From Persephonella sp. (GTDB taxonomy: Bacteria > Aquificota > Aquificia > Aquificales > Hydrogenothermaceae): a stretch of DNA of 34,942 nt. The stretch is taken from contig NZ_WFPS01000044.1 of the NCBI RefSeq assembly GCF_015487465.1, positions 1 through 34,942 of the forward strand, written 5' to 3'. The translations under genes were made by a program, and so were the position numbers. Below, piece by piece: positions 26,625-34,942 of this stretch (the first letter of the stretch is position 1; each line of letters starts with the position of its first letter). A model generated the notes under the pieces. That model was not told the DNA's origin, did no database searches, and saw nothing but the letters and a program-made list of their open reading frames with translations.

Positions 26625-28661
26625 TTAAAATCTATAACTAACATTCATATATACAAATCTGCCTGGTTCGGGAACTTTTGTTCCACTGCTAAATGGATTT
26701 CTCAGGTATGAAAGGTGGGTGTAGTAGTTTTTATCAAAAAGGTTGTCTATACCAAGTCCTATGAAGGCTCTGTTTCCTGCATTTAATCCTGTCTTTATGT
26801 TGATCACATAGTATGATTTTGTTTTTTGTTCGTTCAGATCGCTGTCAACATCTTCTTGAGGTGAAGCATAAATTCCCTCAATCTGTCCAAAGGCTGTTCC
26901 GTTGTCGTATTTTACGGCGATCCTTGTTTTAAGAGGAGGTATCTCTGCAAGATCGCTGTCTGTGTAATTTCCACTGTCCTTTTTTCCCCTCTGGTAAGCA
27001 ACCCCTGCCTCAACAGAAACAGTGTCTGTCAGCATACCTACAGCTGTCAGATCCCCACCGTATATGTGGGCATCAATGTTCTGGTAGGACTGAGCTGGTT
27101 TTGTTTCATACCTGATCGGGTTTATTCTTGTCAGGTATATGTAATCGGTCAGATCGCTGTAGAAAATATTCCCCTTTATCCCAAACAGACCCCGGTAATA
27201 CTCAAAACCTGCATCAATCTCGTTATTTTTTGTTGGATTAAGGTTTGGATTTCCCACCCAGTTAGGTTTTGTCATCGGTTTTTTAAGAGCTATAAATCTT
27301 TCTTCAGGATCAGGAACTCTGACTGTATGTCCAAGACCTACATAAACGCTTGATCTTTTATCTATTTTATATCTTGCCACGATGTTCCCTGAAAGATATG
27401 TGTCTGTCTGGGAAAGATCATAGCTGTTGTAGTATGAGTCGTAAAGTCTATTGTTTGCAGTTCCAAGTGCGTTCCTGTTTGCTTCAGATTTTGTGCTGTC
27501 AATTCTAACACCGGCTGAGATTATAATATTTCCAACAGGTTTTGTTCCTTTTATGTATGCACCTACATTCTTTATGTCAACATCAGGTATCATTCCTCTG
27601 TTGTCCAATGTCATAAGCTGATTGTCCGCTTTCCAGTTTCTCAAATAAGCATCAACACCGGTTTGCAGTTTGATATCACCTATACTGAGACCTTTTTCTA
27701 CCTTTGCACCGTATGTTTTTGTTTTTGCAAGGGTTCTCATCATGTAGCCTCTTGTCCATGTTGCTGATGTGGTTCTCCATCTGTCCTGCATGTCATGTTT
27801 TACAAAGTTCCAGTAGGCTGAAATTTTAACGCCCAGAGGCTTTATGAAATATTCACCATTTACTCTATGGGTTCTATCATAAACAGCGTCCATCAGAAGA
27901 TATGGATATAAAACATCTTTTGCTTCGTCAAAAGCGTAATTTATTTTTATCTCATTTTCATTGTTTGGGGTAATTACAATCTTTGCCCATGCGTTGTCTA
28001 TGTCAAACGCTGTGTGGTCTATCTCTGAAGATTTGTAATTAGCATACTCGGTAATTTTTTTCCCTTCTCCTGATTTGTAAGGTTTTGAATACTGTTTGGA
28101 ATATCCAACAAGCACTCTTGCAAGATCGTTACCTGCATAACCGTCAAAACCACCGTGAAGGTAATTAAAATATCCTCCTGTAAAATACAATGAACCTCCT
28201 TTACCTTTGTCTGGATCTTTTGAGATCAGATTTACAACGCCTGCAAGGGATCCCTGGTTTGCAACATCAAAAGGTCCCTCTAATATCTGAACCTCTTTAA
28301 CCTGTCTGGTTGACATATGAAAAATAGGTGGATCCATTCTATTAGGGCAGGCACCATATATTCTCTGTCCATCTATCAGAACATTTATGTTATCCCTTCC
28401 AAATCCTCTGATTGTTATGTCGTTTGCTGTTCCTCCTTTTCTTATGTGGTTAACTTCAGGGAAAAGGTTTGAAAGGATCTCTCCTACATCTATCTGTCTT
28501 GTTATTTTAATTTCTTCTCCTGTAGTTTCTCTTGTCTCTCCAACGGTTTCCTCTGCTGTTATCTCTTCAGCAACTGTTATTTTTTTGATCTTTATAACTT
28601 CCTGAGCTGAAGCATAAAAAAATGTTGGCAATACCAGTCCTGCTGCTAAAAGCTTTCTCAT
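26625..28661 (-). CDS. TonB-dependent copper receptor, OprC/NosA type
   Basis: This 678-residue outer-membrane protein has a signal peptide (1-20), a TonB-box-like region and a plug domain (FPEVNHIRKGGTANDITIRGFGRDNINVLIDGQRI, EVQILEGPFDV). A beta-barrel follows, ending in a terminal aromatic residue (VSYRF). The plug contains C105PNRM109 (CxxxM) and the barrel has H289DM291 (HxM). Together these match the copper-binding CxxxM-HxM site described for Pseudomonas OprC. Methionines elsewhere (MTLDNRGMIP) fit a Met-rich track. NosA of P. stutzeri is the homologue tied to N2O reductase, in line with the neighbouring nos genes. It is divergent from sco-pcuAC. Confidence 0.9.
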   Translation of the reverse strand: MRKLLAAGLVLPTFFYASAQEVIKIKKITVAEEITAEETVGETRETTGEEIKITRQIDVGEILSNLFPEVNHIRKGGTANDITIRGFGRDNINVLIDGQRIYGACPNRMDPPIFHMSTRQVKEVQILEGPFDVANQGSLAGVVNLISKDPDKGKGGSLYFTGGYFNYLHGGFDGYAGNDLARVLVGYSKQYSKPYKSGEGKKITEYANYKSSEIDHTAFDIDNAWAKIVITPNNENEIKINYAFDEAKDVLYPYLLMDAVYDRTHRVNGEYFIKPLGVKISAYWNFVKHDMQDRWRTTSATWTRGYMMRTLAKTKTYGAKVEKGLSIGDIKLQTGVDAYLRNWKADNQLMTLDNRGMIPDVDIKNVGAYIKGTKPVGNIIISAGVRIDSTKSEANRNALGTANNRLYDSYYNSYDLSQTDTYLSGNIVARYKIDKRSSVYVGLGHTVRVPDPEERFIALKKPMTKPNWVGNPNLNPTKNNEIDAGFEYYRGLFGIKGNIFYSDLTDYIYLTRINPIRYETKPAQSYQNIDAHIYGGDLTAVGMLTDTVSVEAGVAYQRGKKDSGNYTDSDLAEIPPLKTRIAVKYDNGTAFGQIEGIYASPQEDVDSDLNEQKTKSYYVINIKTGLNAGNRAFIGLGIDNLFDKNYYTHLSYLRNPFSSGTKVPEPGRFVYMNVSYRF

Positions 28662-28755
28662 TTTGCCCTCCTTGTTATTTTTAGTTTAATTTTAATATAA
28701 TTTTAACATTAATTAATCTCAGATTTTAAATTAAATTTTGTTATAAAAAGTAGCA

Positions 28756-28769
28756 TTGATATAGATCAA
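28756..28769. promoter_or_regulatory. FNR/CRP-family operator, perfect consensus
   Basis: TTGATATAGATCAA matches the FNR consensus TTGAT-N4-ATCAA exactly. It sits between the divergent copper receptor and sco genes, 95 bases before the receptor ATG and 66 bases before the sco ATG. An FNR- or Dnr/NNR-type regulator probably acts here. The direction of control is not settled because both genes could use it. Confidence 0.75.
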
Positions 28770-28772
28770 AGT

Positions 28773-28786
28773 TTGACATCAATCAA
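28773..28786. promoter_or_regulatory. Second FNR-type operator, one mismatch
   Basis: TTGACATCAATCAA differs from the consensus at one half-site base (TTGAC for TTGAT). Its centre is 17 bp from the first site's centre. It also contains TTGACA, a possible -35 for sco (28773-28778), with the AT-rich TAGGATAAAAT region downstream as -10. The remaining 28662-28755 is AT-rich, with no other signal that I can identify. Confidence 0.6.
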
Positions 28787-28834
28787 TGGATAAATAGGAT
28801 AAAATGTTATATTGTTATTGCTGGAGGTGGTAAA

Positions 28835-29434
28835 ATGAAGCGGCTGGCAGGAATTTTGAGTATTATTCTTATGTTTTGTCATATCTCTTTTGGATATCAG
28901 TTTTACGGTTATCCTTATGTTCAGAAAATCAAAAATTTCACGCTTATAGACCAGAATGGGAAAGAGGTGAGTTTTTATGATTTTAGGGGAAAATATCTTC
29001 TTGTATTCTTCGGATATACATACTGTCCTGATGTTTGTCCTACATCTATGCTCAGGATAAAAGAAACCCTCGACCACCTTGGCAGTTATAAAAGGTATGT
29101 CCATGTTCTTTTTATTTCTGTTGATCCTGAAAGGGATACACCTGAGCTTTTGAAAAAGTTTATTTCTTTTTATGATCCTTCAGGTAAGTATATAACGGGG
29201 CTTACAGGGAAACCTGAAGAGATAAAAAAGGTTGCCAAAATGTTCAAAGCATACTACGAGAAGGTTCCGATAAAGAACAATCCCGAGGTTGGTTATCTTG
29301 TGGATCATACTGCTTTTATATATCTTGTGGATAAAAACGGGATTTTAAGAATTATTTTTAGACCTGCAAATGATGATCCAAAAAGGATAGCTCAGGATAT
29401 AATACGGGTAATAAAAATTTTTGGAGTTGAATAA
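28835..29434 (+). CDS. SCO1/SenC-family copper chaperone
   Basis: SCO proteins are periplasmic thioredoxin-fold copper chaperones that help mature CuA centres. The 199-residue protein has a signal or anchor segment (1-20), the copper-binding C64PDVC68P and the His ligand H158 in VDHTAFIYLVD. Typical blocks are NFTLIDQNGKEVSFYDFRGKYLLVFFGYTYC, FISVDPERDTPELLKKF and GLTGKPEEI. The ATG follows CTGGAGGTGG. It overlaps pcuAC by one base (TAATG), so both are one unit behind the FNR-type sites. Confidence 0.94.
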   Translation: MKRLAGILSIILMFCHISFGYQFYGYPYVQKIKNFTLIDQNGKEVSFYDFRGKYLLVFFGYTYCPDVCPTSMLRIKETLDHLGSYKRYVHVLFISVDPERDTPELLKKFISFYDPSGKYITGLTGKPEEIKKVAKMFKAYYEKVPIKNNPEVGYLVDHTAFIYLVDKNGILRIIFRPANDDPKRIAQDIIRVIKIFGVE

Positions 29435-29850
29435 TGGGAAAAATATTTGCAGCTTTACTTGTAATTGTAGGATTTGTATATGCAAAGCCTGAAATTATAA
29501 TTGAGGATCCGTGGGTCAGGGCAGTTCCTCCAACAGCAAAAAATACAGCTCTTTTCATGGTTATAAAAAATGTTGGTGATGAAGCAGATATTCTAATCGG
29601 CGTAAAAACGAATATATCTAAAATGGTTTCCATACACAAAACTGTAAACCAGAATGGGGTAATGAAGATGGTTCATGTTGATAGGCTTCCTGTTCCTGCC
29701 GGCAAAAGTGTAGTGCTAAAGCCTGGAGGGTATCATATTATGGTTATGGGGCTGAAAAAGGATATAAAAGCAGGGGATAATGTTAAATTCACATTAATTT
29801 TTGAAAAATCAGGCGAAATAACCATAAAAGCACCTGTTAAAATGAAATAG
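29434..29850 (+). CDS. PCuAC periplasmic copper chaperone (DUF461)
   Basis: PCuAC proteins deliver Cu(I) in the periplasm, for instance to CuA sites. The 138-residue product has a signal peptide (1-17), DPWVRAVPPTAKNTALFM, and the complete copper-binding motif H-x10-M-x21-H-x-M: H68, M79, H101 and M103. It ends 0 bases from the convergent cytochrome c stop. Position beside sco, the copper receptor and the nos operon fits a role in building NosZ CuA or an oxidase CuA. Confidence 0.94.
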   Translation: MGKIFAALLVIVGFVYAKPEIIIEDPWVRAVPPTAKNTALFMVIKNVGDEADILIGVKTNISKMVSIHKTVNQNGVMKMVHVDRLPVPAGKSVVLKPGGYHIMVMGLKKDIKAGDNVKFTLIFEKSGEITIKAPVKMK

Positions 29851-30249
29851 CTATTTTTTTAGGGTCAGCAACCAGTCTACTATCAGTTTTATCTCCTCAT
29901 CTGTATAGTAAGGCTTTTGAGGAGGCATATACATAACATCTCCTTTGCCCAGTCTTGTTTGAACATGACCCTTTAGCCAGTCATGCCATTTTCCTTTACT
30001 TCCGTTTTTTATGGCATCAAAAAACTGTTTTTTTAAGGTTTCTTTAGGGATATCTTTATACCTTTTTAATATTACCTTGAAAGGAGGAGCTACTATTGTT
30101 TTATTTATGTCGTGACACCATGAGCATCTCTTTGCAAGCATCTTTCCTTTTAATATGGGATCTTTTTCAATCTCTTCTCTTGTTAAAGCATCGCTTGAAA
30201 AAGTAAGTGCTAATACCCCTGTTAAAGCTAAAAACATAATTTTTTTCAT
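29851..30249 (-). CDS. Monohaem c-type cytochrome of the nos operon
   Basis: The 132-residue protein has a signal peptide (1-20), one haem site C42SWC45H46, and a probable axial Met in DVMYMPPQKPYYTDEEIKLIVDWL. It is the last gene of the nos operon, 9 bases after nosY. Its likely role is to pass electrons to NosZ, comparable to NosC cytochromes of Campylobacterota. The loop WHDWLKGHVQTRLGKGD between the haem site and the Met is distinctive. Confidence 0.88.
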   Translation of the reverse strand: MKKIMFLALTGVLALTFSSDALTREEIEKDPILKGKMLAKRCSWCHDINKTIVAPPFKVILKRYKDIPKETLKKQFFDAIKNGSKGKWHDWLKGHVQTRLGKGDVMYMPPQKPYYTDEEIKLIVDWLLTLKK

Positions 30250-30258
30250 CTTTTCCTC

Positions 30259-31050
30259 CTAAAAATCTTTTTTCTTAAATTTATACAGCCCTGCAAATAA
30301 GGGGAGGAATATCCACACAAAGAGCACCCCCAGAGATAAAAATATGCCCAGTTTCGTGTCAAAAAATTTCTGGAATATTGCCCCTGTGTATCCTAAGAGA
30401 GCAGCTATGTCAAGTTTTAAAATAACAAAAATTCTTGCAATGTCCACAGGATTTAAAACCGAAAGGAGTAAAACAGGGTTTTCCAGAGGATAATCTTTGA
30501 AGTAAATAATGATAAACAGTATTATTCCGTCATAAATAAGTGTTGTGTAAAGCCACAGCAGAATTGAAGCTCCAAAACCTTTTACCCGATCTTCAAAAAA
30601 AGTAGCGATTAAAAAGGCAAAAGCTACAAATATTAGTGTTAAAAATATTCCTGATGCCACAAGGGAAAAATACAAAAAGTATTCAGGTGATTCTTCTAAA
30701 GATCTGATAAAAAAGAAATAAGGAAGTAAAACACCAAGGGCAAAACTTACAGACAGTGATATTGTTGTCCCTAAGTATTTTGATATGTATATACTGCTTC
30801 TTTTGATAGGTAGTGAAAGCAGTAGCTCAGTAAAGTTTCTTGAGTCATACATAAAGATAGTTCCTAAAATCAGGCTTATAAGAGGAATTACCAGAATAAC
30901 AAGCTGAAGCAGTGTTGCCACAACCTTTGCAGGTGATTTTGCAAAATAAAACAGAGCTGTTGTGAGCATAAGGAAAAACAGAAAATAAAATATTATCCAT
31001 TTATTTCTGAACATATTAAAAAATTCGTATTTTAAAAGTTTAAGAACCAT
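30259..31050 (-). CDS. nosY: NosY, ABC permease of the Nos maturation system
   Basis: The 263-residue inner-membrane protein has six hydrophobic helices and the ABC-2-type pattern of NosY: MFRNKWIIFYFLFF near the start, SLILGTIFMYDSRNFTELLLSLPIKRSSIYISKYLG, and a C-terminal helix with LPLFAGLYKFKKKDF. With NosF (ATPase) and NosD (periplasmic) it forms a complex needed for CuZ assembly in NosZ. The start overlaps nosF by 11 bases. Confidence 0.93.
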   Translation of the reverse strand: MVLKLLKYEFFNMFRNKWIIFYFLFFLMLTTALFYFAKSPAKVVATLLQLVILVIPLISLILGTIFMYDSRNFTELLLSLPIKRSSIYISKYLGTTISLSVSFALGVLLPYFFFIRSLEESPEYFLYFSLVASGIFLTLIFVAFAFLIATFFEDRVKGFGASILLWLYTTLIYDGIILFIIIYFKDYPLENPVLLLSVLNPVDIARIFVILKLDIAALLGYTGAIFQKFFDTKLGIFLSLGVLFVWIFLPLFAGLYKFKKKDF

Positions 31051-31759
31051 ACCCTCTCTCCATCAGCTTTGCGATCGCCCTTTCTAAATTTTTTTCGCCA
31101 GAATTTTCAATTATCTCTTTCACAGATCCCTGAACATAAACAACCCCCTCAAGCAGAAAAATTATATAGTCAGCTATTTCCTCAACCTCGCTCATTATAT
31201 GTGATGTCAAAACAACAAGCCTTTCCCTTTCAACCTGCTCTCTTATTTTATCTTTTAGAAAACTGCTTGATATAGGATCCAGCCCAACAGTGGGTTCATC
31301 AAGAAAGTAAAGCTCAGGATCAAACATAAAGGTTATTAGAGCACTAACCTTCTGTTTTGTTCCCCCTGATAATGTTTTAAGTTTTTTGTCCATATATTGG
31401 TGAAGTTTGAAGCCTTGTATGAAGCTTTCTTTAATGTTTGGGTTATAACCCTCTTTTCTGATATCAACAAGCATGTTTATAAGTTCCTTAAGCGTCAAAT
31501 TTTCCGGGAAAACTGCGGTCTGGGGCATATAACCGATATACTTTCTGTAATCCCAGCTGTAGGTTGCACTTTCCCCTTTTATGTATATTTCTCCTGATGT
31601 GGGAATAACAAGCCCTAAAATAGATTTTATAAGAGTTGTTTTTCCTGAGCCGTTTGGTCCCAGTATAGCAACAACCTGTCCTTTTTTCAGCTCAATATTT
31701 ATTCCTTTAAGGACTTCAATTTTTCCAAATTTTTTGTGAAGGTTTTTTACTTTGACCAT
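31040..31759 (-). CDS. nosF: NosF, ABC ATPase of the Nos maturation system
   Basis: The 239-residue ATPase has Walker A GPNGSGKTT (34-42), a Q-loop (GYMPQ), the signature LSGGTKQK (130-137), Walker B ELYFLDEPTVGLD and an H-loop (LTSHIMSEVEEIADY). It powers NosDFY, which works on sulfur or copper delivery to the CuZ site. The start lies inside nosD by 13 bases. Confidence 0.95.
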   Translation of the reverse strand: MVKVKNLHKKFGKIEVLKGINIELKKGQVVAILGPNGSGKTTLIKSILGLVIPTSGEIYIKGESATYSWDYRKYIGYMPQTAVFPENLTLKELINMLVDIRKEGYNPNIKESFIQGFKLHQYMDKKLKTLSGGTKQKVSALITFMFDPELYFLDEPTVGLDPISSSFLKDKIREQVERERLVVLTSHIMSEVEEIADYIIFLLEGVVYVQGSVKEIIENSGEKNLERAIAKLMERGYGS

Positions 31760-33024
31760 TCATATCTCCTCATCAACGGTCTGTTGTCCCTGAGTTCTGA
31801 TGGTATGATCATAGGAAAGTTTCTTTCTGTATAATCAAGCAGATATATAAAAAAACTTCTGGTCAAAACTAAGGAAAGGGGGTAATTCTCTGTGAAATAT
31901 CCAAAGAGAGAAACAGGTCTGTAAGGAACATCTCCTATTCCATCGCTGTTTAGATCATATCCTTTGTAGTCGCTCCAGTAGTTTTCTGTGTAGGTGTTAG
32001 GATTTTTAAAGCTGTTTGTCGCCACATTGAATGTGTTTGCTATAAAGTTGTTATGCCTGAAAATGTTATCCTGAGAGTTAGCCCATATTCTAATAGCCCA
32101 GCCGTTTTCTATAAAGTCATTTTCTTCTATAACTGTTCTGTTGGTGTTGTCTGCAAACACAGCTGTTGTGTTTTTATAAAATGTATTGTGGTATATGTAA
32201 CTGTCGTATATCTCCTTTAGAAGAAGTCCGTAAGATGCCATTCCCCAGTTGTGATCAAAAGTGTTGTGAGCCATGTAGACATACTTTGTGTACATAACAG
32301 CAACGCCGGCTCCATTTTTCCTGAAAATGTTGTTTATATAATTATCCCAGTTTGAAAACATAAAATGAAGCCCGTATCTAAGGTTTTTTTCACTTATGTT
32401 GTTTATTATTGTGCTGTTTTTTACAAACTCAAAATAGATGCCGTCCCTATGGTTTTTTACATGGTTTGATTCAATGAGCATGTTTTTGCAGTGCCATAGG
32501 TGTATGCCGTTTCCAAAGTTTGTTTCAATTCTTGTCCCGAAGGCAGACTTTAAATACTTTAATTTTGCTGGACCAAATATCTTGTTATTTTTTATAACCC
32601 CATTTTTTGAAGCTGCGAAATATATACCCCAGAAGTTGTCTTTTAAGATGCAGTCTTCTATACGGCAGTTTTTGGTTCTAAAAAACTTTATTCCTGCTAT
32701 GTCCTCTATGTCGCTTTTTCCTGAGTTTTGAATGACAAGACCCTTAACAACTACATTGTTTGCTTTTACTGTGATGACTTCGTATTTTTTTTGTCCGTCT
32801 ATTACAGGGTACCCTTCGCCAATAAGCTTTACAGATTTTTTTACAACTATATTTCCTTCTTTGTATACCCCTTTTTTGATTAAGATTGTGTCTCCATCTT
32901 CAGCTATCTGGAGGGCTTTTTTTATTGATGAGATTTCACAATCAGGACAAACTGTTATTGTTTTTGCATATGATAAAGTATATGTAATTAAAAATATTAC
33001 CTTTATGCAGAGGAGTTTTTTCAT
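31747..33024 (-). CDS. nosD: NosD, periplasmic beta-helix protein for CuZ assembly
   Basis: The 425-residue protein has a signal peptide (1-20) and a right-handed beta-helix of CASH/PbH1 repeats, seen as recurring short blocks such as NNKIFGP, IHLWHCKNMLIESNHV, DGIYFEFVKNSTIINN and YGLHFMFSNWDNYINN. The C-terminal part has YTENYWSDYKGYDLNSDGIGDVPYRP, the NosD hallmark. NosD contacts NosFY and NosL during CuZ maturation. Spacing to nosL is 1 base. Confidence 0.95.
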   Translation of the reverse strand: MKKLLCIKVIFLITYTLSYAKTITVCPDCEISSIKKALQIAEDGDTILIKKGVYKEGNIVVKKSVKLIGEGYPVIDGQKKYEVITVKANNVVVKGLVIQNSGKSDIEDIAGIKFFRTKNCRIEDCILKDNFWGIYFAASKNGVIKNNKIFGPAKLKYLKSAFGTRIETNFGNGIHLWHCKNMLIESNHVKNHRDGIYFEFVKNSTIINNISEKNLRYGLHFMFSNWDNYINNIFRKNGAGVAVMYTKYVYMAHNTFDHNWGMASYGLLLKEIYDSYIYHNTFYKNTTAVFADNTNRTVIEENDFIENGWAIRIWANSQDNIFRHNNFIANTFNVATNSFKNPNTYTENYWSDYKGYDLNSDGIGDVPYRPVSLFGYFTENYPLSLVLTRSFFIYLLDYTERNFPMIIPSELRDNRPLMRRYEWSK

Positions 33025-33025
33025 T

Positions 33026-33535
33026 TTACATGTTCATATGGTTGTGATTGTGCATTTTCATTTTATGTTTTTTCTGTATCCACTCCTTTTTTACAAGATC
33101 AATAACCTGATTCCAGTTTAATACCTCTCCACCGTATTTTTCTTTAACCTTTTCAAGCTCTTCTTTTTTTTCAAAGGCTGTAAGGTTCATACCCATTGGA
33201 CTTGGAAGCCCTTTTGAATGGAGATATAAAGCTTTTTCTGCAGGTATAAATTTTTTGCTTATAAAATCAGGAACCCATAAAGAATGTATTTTCATTTTTT
33301 CTTTATTCTCAATATAAAATGCTGTAAGGCATTCCACACTATCAAATTTATAGGGTTTACCGGTGTTTAAAATAAGTTCTGATCCGTATCTTGGGTCTGT
33401 TATTTTCATTCTGCAGTAATCACATTCGTCCTGTCCGTAATTAATAGGCACTGGTTTTATCTCTTTTTCGCATGAGACAAACATAAAAAAGAAAATCGCT
33501 GGAGCCACCAGCAGTATGAGCTTGATGGGTTTCAT
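33026..33535 (-). CDS. nosL: NosL copper-chaperone lipoprotein with His/Met-rich tail
   Basis: NosL binds Cu(I) and donates it to the NosDFY/NosZ maturation path. The 169-residue protein has a lipobox at VSC (Cys22) and the copper motif C38DYC41RM43, followed by DPRYGSELIL, YKFDSVECL and MGMNLTAFEKKEELE. The last 15 residues are unusually rich in Lys, His, Met and Asn (KKHKMKMHNHNHMNM), which is not usual for NosL and looks like an extra copper-binding appendage. Its ATG overlaps the upstream membrane-protein gene by 4 bases. Confidence 0.93.
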   Translation of the reverse strand: MKPIKLILLVAPAIFFFMFVSCEKEIKPVPINYGQDECDYCRMKITDPRYGSELILNTGKPYKFDSVECLTAFYIENKEKMKIHSLWVPDFISKKFIPAEKALYLHSKGLPSPMGMNLTAFEKKEELEKVKEKYGGEVLNWNQVIDLVKKEWIQKKHKMKMHNHNHMNM

Positions 33536-34116
33536 GCTTTTTTTCTACCTCTTAAAAATTCTATAAATGCAGATAATACACCAAGAGTTCCGGAAACGGC
33601 AAGTAAATATGTTCCAGAGGAAGGAAATGCACACGCCCTAAAATTAAGAAGATTTTTACAGCCGAACATAGGAGGCTGATAAGCCATTCCTGGTATTTTT
33701 ATTGGTGCATGGGGATTAAGGTTGTGTCCGTAATCGTATTCCCACCACCAGAAGTCTACTAACGATGCTACACCTATCAGGACTATCAAGACAGCCCATG
33801 CGTAAAGAAGTTTCTTGCTTCCGGTAGCGGCTGTTAATAGTCCCAGAAATATCATAAAGCCAAAAACAACAGGAAGTATTTTAAGTTCAGGAATGGAGTT
33901 TGGATCTATCTTTTTCATTCCAACGTAGTGGTTTAAAAGATTAATATTTTGGAGATCATGGGGATTTTTCCCTGTTATTTTGTTTACCCAGATTATCATT
34001 CCCAGTCCATCTGGATACTGTGGAGCATAAAGGCGTATTTTCCATAAAGGTTGAAAATAAATCCCTATCATTATTAAAGAAGCGAGGGCGATAAGCCCCC
34101 GTGAAATCCAGCTCAT
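33532..34116 (-). CDS. Conserved nos-cluster membrane protein, function unknown
   Basis: The 194-residue protein has four hydrophobic helices, near residues 4-25, 80-97, 103-124 and 167-188. The loop between helices 3 and 4 is striking: DFWWWEYDYGHNL, NPHAPIKIPG, then PPMFGCKNLL. It is Trp/His/Cys-rich and probably periplasmic, so a metal or redox role is possible. I recall similar genes beside nosL in clade II-type nos clusters, and the position resembles NosB, but I cannot assign that name. It sits 13 bases after nosZ with AAGGAGG and overlaps nosL. Confidence 0.8.
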   Translation of the reverse strand: MSWISRGLIALASLIMIGIYFQPLWKIRLYAPQYPDGLGMIIWVNKITGKNPHDLQNINLLNHYVGMKKIDPNSIPELKILPVVFGFMIFLGLLTAATGSKKLLYAWAVLIVLIGVASLVDFWWWEYDYGHNLNPHAPIKIPGMAYQPPMFGCKNLLNFRACAFPSSGTYLLAVSGTLGVLSAFIEFLRGRKKA

Positions 34117-34129
34117 ATTTTATACCTCC

Positions 34130-34942
34130 TTATTTTACTACGTGCATTTCTTCTCCTGTTCCGTACTTAATTGGTACGTTAGAACCTTTTGGAGATACCC
34201 TTACATAACCTTGCATTTCCTGATGTAGAGCTGAACAGAAGTCTGTGCAGTAGAATGGGAATACTCCAGGTTTTTGGGGTTTCCATTTGAGTGTGAGTGT
34301 TTCTCCAGGCATTATAAGGAGGTTTGATGTTCTTGCCCCGTATACAGCAAATCCGTGTGGTATATCCCAGTCCTGCTCAATGTTTGTGACGTGGAAGTAA
34401 ACGGTATCGCCCACTTTGATACCTTCTATGTTGTCAGGTGTAAAGTGAGATCTGATCGCTGTCATGTAAATGTGCACTTCATTTCCTTTTCTTACAACTT
34501 TAGCTTCTTCCTCGGATTTTGTAGCGTATGGGTGAGTATTCTTTTCAAGTTCAAAGATTTTCAGTGATTTTGGTGCAAGAATACTTGCAGGTATTGCCTG
34601 TGCATAGTGTGGTTCTCCAAGCTCTGTCAGATCAAGGAGGAATTGTGGTTTTGTATTTTCAACATTTGCAGAGATGTCATAAAGCTGTCCTGCGTGTGGA
34701 AGTTCTGGACCTGTTGGCAGAAATACATCTTTTGTAATTTTGTTCATAGGAAGGAGATATTTACCCCATGGCTTTGCAGAGTCTCCTCCTGGGATCATAA
34801 GGTGTCCAACAGAGTAATATGTTGGAACGTGTCCAAGAACTTTACATTTTTTGTAGTCGTAGTAAACAACATCAGAGGATATGAAACATGATGTGAATGC
34901 ATGTCCTCTTCCGTCAAACTCTGTGTGCAGAGGTCCAAGACA
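34130..34942 (-). CDS. nosZ: NosZ, nitrous oxide reductase (C-terminal 270 residues)
   Basis: NosZ reduces N2O to N2 in the periplasm using CuZ and CuA centres. The gene enters from the right edge without its start. The fragment contains GPLHTEFDGRGHAF (a CuZ His), VGHLMIPGGDS, ELPHAGQ and GEPHYAQ (further CuZ His). The cupredoxin domain follows with IPHGFAVYG and the CuA motif CTDFCSALHQEM. The wording CTDFCSALH rather than CNWFCHALH suggests the clade II (atypical) type. The C-terminus ends about 20 residues after the CuA domain, so there is no C-terminal haem domain as in Wolinella NosZ. The signal peptide type cannot be seen. Confidence 0.97.
   Translation of the reverse strand, partial: CLGPLHTEFDGRGHAFTSCFISSDVVYYDYKKCKVLGHVPTYYSVGHLMIPGGDSAKPWGKYLLPMNKITKDVFLPTGPELPHAGQLYDISANVENTKPQFLLDLTELGEPHYAQAIPASILAPKSLKIFELEKNTHPYATKSEEEAKVVRKGNEVHIYMTAIRSHFTPDNIEGIKVGDTVYFHVTNIEQDWDIPHGFAVYGARTSNLLIMPGETLTLKWKPQKPGVFPFYCTDFCSALHQEMQGYVRVSPKGSNVPIKYGTGEEMHVVK

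Follow-up and report, generated by a model that had tools for sequence, protein, structure and literature searches.

The class II geometry of Escherichia coli FNR consists of TTGAT-N4-ATCAA at -41.5, a -10 element and a weak -35 element, and -41.5 is the commonest place of a single activating FNR site in that species (as cited in PMC7349173). DNR of Pseudomonas aeruginosa (PDB 3dkw; comparative review PMC1274295) lacks the FNR cysteines and has an ETFSR recognition helix, and FNR-like palindromes are found at denitrification genes. The Nss regulators of Wolinella succinogenes (NssA, NssB and NssC) respond to nitrate, NO and N2O (PMC6682613). In Nitrosophilus labii, there are multiple sites of the form TTGA-N6-TCAA, the exact ones starting 48–49 bases from predicted start sites (PMC11539149). 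Herbaspirillum seropedicae has two Crp/Fnr paralogues, Fnr1 and Fnr3, on common promoters; tandem sites were sought there but none were found, and heterodimers on one site were proposed (PMC5934665). In the literature that we found, the coverage of which is incomplete, no FNR, Dnr or NNR boxes are described in tandem or overlapping at 17-bp spacing, and no paper on a Persephonella regulon appeared.

Here we describe such a double site in Persephonella sp., on a contig of 34,942 nucleotides (the window; contig C44, NZ_WFPS01000044.1). A TonB-dependent receptor gene that is closest to copper receptors (26625..28661, reverse strand; TIGR01778, 213 bits, below the cut-off of 472) is separated by a 173-bp gap from the divergent sco, which encodes a SCO1/SenC copper chaperone (28835..29434, forward strand; PF02630, 1.5e-44). 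The start codon of pcuAC, for a PCu(A)C copper chaperone (29434..29850, forward strand; PF04314, 3e-42), overlaps the stop of sco, and the two genes are probably co-transcribed. Convergent with pcuAC is a nos cluster (29851..34942, reverse strand) with genes for a cytochrome c, a permease, an ABC ATPase, NosD, NosL, a protein of 194 amino acids and the C-terminal end of a clade II NosZ (34130–34942), which runs off the right end of the window. The 194-residue protein, encoded between nosZ and nosL (33532–34116, reverse strand), has no Pfam or NCBIfam match.

A preliminary description of the window had claimed two FNR-type palindromes in the receptor/sco gap, 17 bp apart, one exact and one with a single mismatch. 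A pattern search of the window bore this out. Site 1, TTGATATAGATCAA (28756–28769), has no mismatches to TTGAT-N4-ATCAA, and site 2, TTGACATCAATCAA (28773–28786), has one, a C at position 5. Their centres, at 28762.5 and 28779.5, are 17 bp apart, leaving a 3-bp gap within a 31-bp element, and they are the only exact matches to TTGAY-N4-RTCAA in the whole window.

Each site is in the predicted activator position for one of the two promoters. The predicted -10 hexamer of the receptor promoter, TAATTT (28728..28733, reverse strand), is at offset 23 from site 1, and that of the sco–pcuAC promoter, TATATT (28808..28813, forward strand), is at offset 22 from site 2. With -10 elements and starts predicted by position, an offset of 23 (22 for sco) is the class II activator geometry of -41.5; site 1 is thus the predicted core site of the receptor promoter and site 2, at approximately -41.5, that of the sco promoter. 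The distance of 48–49 bases given for Nitrosophilus labii is the same geometry.

This placement recurs across related promoters. At all 14 nosZ-type, all 11 cytochrome c and all 4 nrdD promoters, a TANNNT hexamer begins 23 bases past the core site, as it does in 8 of 8 napA promoters when counted from the distal site. For sco it starts at 22–23 in most promoters, and in the receptor direction 10 of 11 aligned loci have it at 23. TANNNT is a loose criterion in AT-rich DNA and orthologous promoters are not independent observations; with near-identical sequences removed, 25 of 33 promoters share one offset, compared with a maximum of 9 at any offset in 2,000 shuffles.

The preliminary description had also judged the pair improbable by chance. 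The window is AT-rich (37% GC) and the genome has some exact single sites within genes, as might be expected if two AT-rich palindromes merely happened to adjoin. However, among 200,000 shuffles of the gap, at least one site arose in 343 and two sites arose in none. The 31-bp pattern with up to two mismatches occurs in 2–5 places per genome in 14 Persephonella genomes (reversed control, 0); with up to one mismatch, across 136 Aquificota genomes, it is confined to Persephonella and two genomes of other genera (G009 and G016), and reversed-pattern pairs are absent from all 136. Together with conservation at orthologous promoters, these controls rule out chance for the pair as a unit, and we regard a fortuitous origin as extremely improbable.

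The spacing itself, whose constancy across a whole regulon the preliminary description had not noticed, is strictly fixed. When the gap between the two sites was allowed to vary from 0 to 30 bases in the 14 Persephonella genomes, pairs were found only at a gap of 3, that is, in the 17-bp register. Gaps of 4–34 returned only 33, with no pairs at other gaps up to 32; the gap of 33 reflects an additional, third site that four genomes have at sco, and its recovery indicates that the variable-gap search works. This FNR-like site, TTRATATTTGTCAA, occurs in the sco gap of G019, G024, G027 and G028, 33 bp beyond the tandem towards the receptor gene, which it lies nearer and could repress.

Conservation in close relatives, which the preliminary description had named as a test of its claim, also came out in its favour: the tandem is kept upstream of sco, with its 3-bp gap and altered spacer bases, in several further genomes of Persephonella as well as the two other genera. 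The pair is dispensable at sco in several relatives, which have a single site there. In these relatives the sco -10 shifts to 22–24 from that site, and the -10 in the receptor direction is again at 23, save in L065, where a sequence other than that of the receptor lies upstream; that the -10 tracks the site is good evidence of function.

Five ortholog groups carry the tandem: sco; cytochrome c–nosZ; a stand-alone cytochrome c; napA, of a nap–nir gene run; and a PAS receptor gene. The preliminary description had placed nosZ just outside the right edge of the window and predicted a matching site upstream of it. The gene is in fact split, with its C-terminal end inside the window and its start on a different contig (G000:C42:34366, at the end of C42). 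The predicted site exists: on C42 a cytochrome c gene precedes nosZ, and a tandem operator, TTAATCTGGATCAA-TCC-TTGATGTCTGTCAA (C42:33819–33849), lies before this operon. Each end of the nos island therefore has one tandem operator, at C44:28756–28786 and C42:33819–33849, and in the relative G025 both are on a single contig with approximately 7.8 kb between them.

In the genome of the window (G000), napA appears to run on into contig C22, where the napA end overlaps the sequence of contig C53; downstream on the same strand, C22 carries nap genes, a PAS protein, a porin and nirS. We saw no intergenic site belonging to nirS itself, which is downstream of nap in this same-strand run. Weak tandem matches, found only at two mismatches, occur at nrdD and one multihaem cytochrome locus, and nrdD is convincing for the proximal site only.

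Single exact sites in the same genome are found before moaA, before nrdD and between the Crp/Fnr regulator gene on C53 and its neighbour. The site upstream of moaA, a molybdenum cofactor gene (L025, G000:C37:3108), is followed by TANNNT at offset 23; this arrangement suggests that cofactor supply for nitrate reductase also belongs to the regulon. The nrdD-like gene for anaerobic ribonucleotide reductase has a core site upstream (L022, G000:C23:3690), as do its counterparts at L127, L131, L136 and L138, and its -10, TATACT, is conserved at offset 23 in four relatives. In the PAS receptor group (L115, L123, L128 and L140), the tandem, at approximately 3001, ends approximately 10 bases before the start codon. 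This gene sits just after a sigma-factor-like gene and no fitting -10 lies downstream of the tandem, which here may repress rather than activate.

The preliminary description had tied the pair to oxygen or NO through an FNR/Dnr-type regulator and had named the absence of any Crp/Fnr-family regulator as a refutation. We found three such transcription factors in the genome (99.9% complete), on contigs C42, C53 and C82. The C42 and C53 proteins have an FNR-type recognition helix, PETFSR; the helix of the C82 protein reads VETAIR. The C42 regulator gene is divergent from cytochrome c–nosZ and the C53 gene is beside nap. An ExxSR helix reading TTGAT, present in both proteins, also occurs in Dnr, so it does not tell FNR from Dnr.

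The same proteins bear on the possibility that an oxygen-sensing FNR, as an iron–sulfur protein bound to both sites without O2, activates the receptor and sco genes. The sites do match the FNR consensus and a core site also occurs at nrdD, a typical anaerobic gene. However, the three factors have 1 (C42), 0 (C53) and 1 (C82) cysteines, and none could form the four-cysteine [4Fe–4S] cluster of FNR, which in a genome this complete makes the explanation very unlikely. The earlier proposal of a Crp/Fnr regulator is supported, with FNR-type helices encoded in the genome and the sites in activator-like positions at both genes; oxygen sensing through FNR is not supported. Because the FNR iron–sulfur cysteines are absent and both PETFSR proteins are encoded beside denitrification genes, Dnr/Nss-type control by nitrogen oxides is likelier, a reading based on the helix residues, the neighbourhood of the genes and the content of the regulon.

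Traits of Dnr/Nss-type regulators are present together here: a Crp/Fnr fold, the absence of the FNR cysteines, an FNR-like helix and linkage to denitrification genes. Among PDB entries the C42 regulator matches DNR best (3dkw; 1.1e-11), with which it shares the missing cysteines, the ETFSR helix and palindromes at denitrification genes, although the similarity is distant and the literature that we found on Dnr-type regulators describes no double site fixed at 17 bp. The C53 protein has no clear favourite in the PDB, where other Crp-family chains give about the same score. W. succinogenes and its relatives, of a different phylum, are described as having several Crp/Fnr paralogues over nap, nir and clade II nos, and the paralogues of Persephonella would have a similar role. 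The promoters share their core geometry with class II FNR promoters of E. coli; they differ in the second site in fixed register and in the absence of an O2-sensing cluster.

We consider it probable that the pair is a bidirectional class II operator for Dnr/Nss-like activators, which would switch on the receptor gene and sco–pcuAC together with denitrification, the two sites acting as one composite operator. One dimer would bind site 1 at -41.5 of the receptor promoter and another would bind site 2 at approximately -41.5 of the sco–pcuAC promoter, most likely simultaneously, approximately 1.6 helical turns apart. The active regulator, probably under low oxygen with nitrogen oxides present, would turn on both promoters along with nap–nir, cytochrome c and nosZ, and the uptake and loading of copper would thereby increase in step with NosZ, a copper enzyme. 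We infer joint action of the sites from the exact 17-bp register in all paired members of the regulon; the persistence of this register across differing promoter layouts would reflect cooperation between two bound dimers, by contact or through the DNA.

A Crp-type dimer covers approximately 22 bp, and footprints of that size at 17-bp spacing would overlap. The gap might therefore admit one dimer at a time and choose between the receptor and sco promoters, each of which is fitted by one site. We find such a mutually exclusive switch unlikely: exclusion needs no single exact spacing, and the 17-bp pair is also found at promoters without a divergent gene. The napA promoters and many cytochrome c copies, which have no divergent neighbour, likewise led us to reject the general rule that the tandem exists only for divergent promoters.

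Alternatively, the C42 and C53 proteins could take one site each and integrate two nitrogen oxide signals. The genome does encode two paralogues with the same helix type, and many groups combine a near-consensus site with one whose deviations are particular to the group, TTAAY at nos and RTTAG at cytochrome c; at napA, too, the second site is degenerate, and such degeneracy weighs against the composite operator favoured above. Close orthologs of the C42 protein are found in Persephonella and G016, and the C53 type is more widespread. Yet G009 (85% complete) has the sco tandem with a C53-type regulator only. In that genome the C53 type is a likely binder of the tandem, and a division of the sites between paralogues seems to us rather doubtful. 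The C53 gene itself (L016, G000:C53:3329–4406) is separated by an exact site, TTGATTATAATCAA, from a divergent gene for a small protein that we take to resemble DUF2249, and autoregulation through this site is possible.

Under the favoured composite operator, the side on which the second site falls becomes of interest. It lies upstream of the core site, at approximately -58.5, at nosZ, cytochrome c and sco, and downstream, at approximately -24.5, at napA. In the direction of the nos-linked regulator, TANNNT occurs at offset 6 in 7 of 11 de-duplicated promoters; by this weaker signal, the regulator gene would have the shared core at -41.5 with the second site at -24.5, an arrangement that suggests negative feedback. 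We tentatively propose, as a possibility short of an even chance, that TTGAY-N4-RTCAA-N3-TTGAY-N4-RTCAA is an operator for two touching Crp/Fnr dimers, either a dimer of dimers or one per paralogue, and that the side of the weaker site sets the effect, with occupancy at -24.5 blocking polymerase at napA and possibly at the regulator's own promoter. If true, strong induction would hold back both nitrate reduction and the regulator but leave N2O reduction and copper supply switched on.

These results provide a concrete, testable map of the regulon for denitrification and N2O reduction in a lineage of hot vents; we found no such map in the literature searched. The promoter architecture links the acquisition of copper to NosZ, a copper enzyme, and suggests that hot-vent Persephonella turns on copper delivery and denitrification together. 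If confirmed, the strictly fixed double site would represent cooperative operator binding in the Crp/Fnr family.
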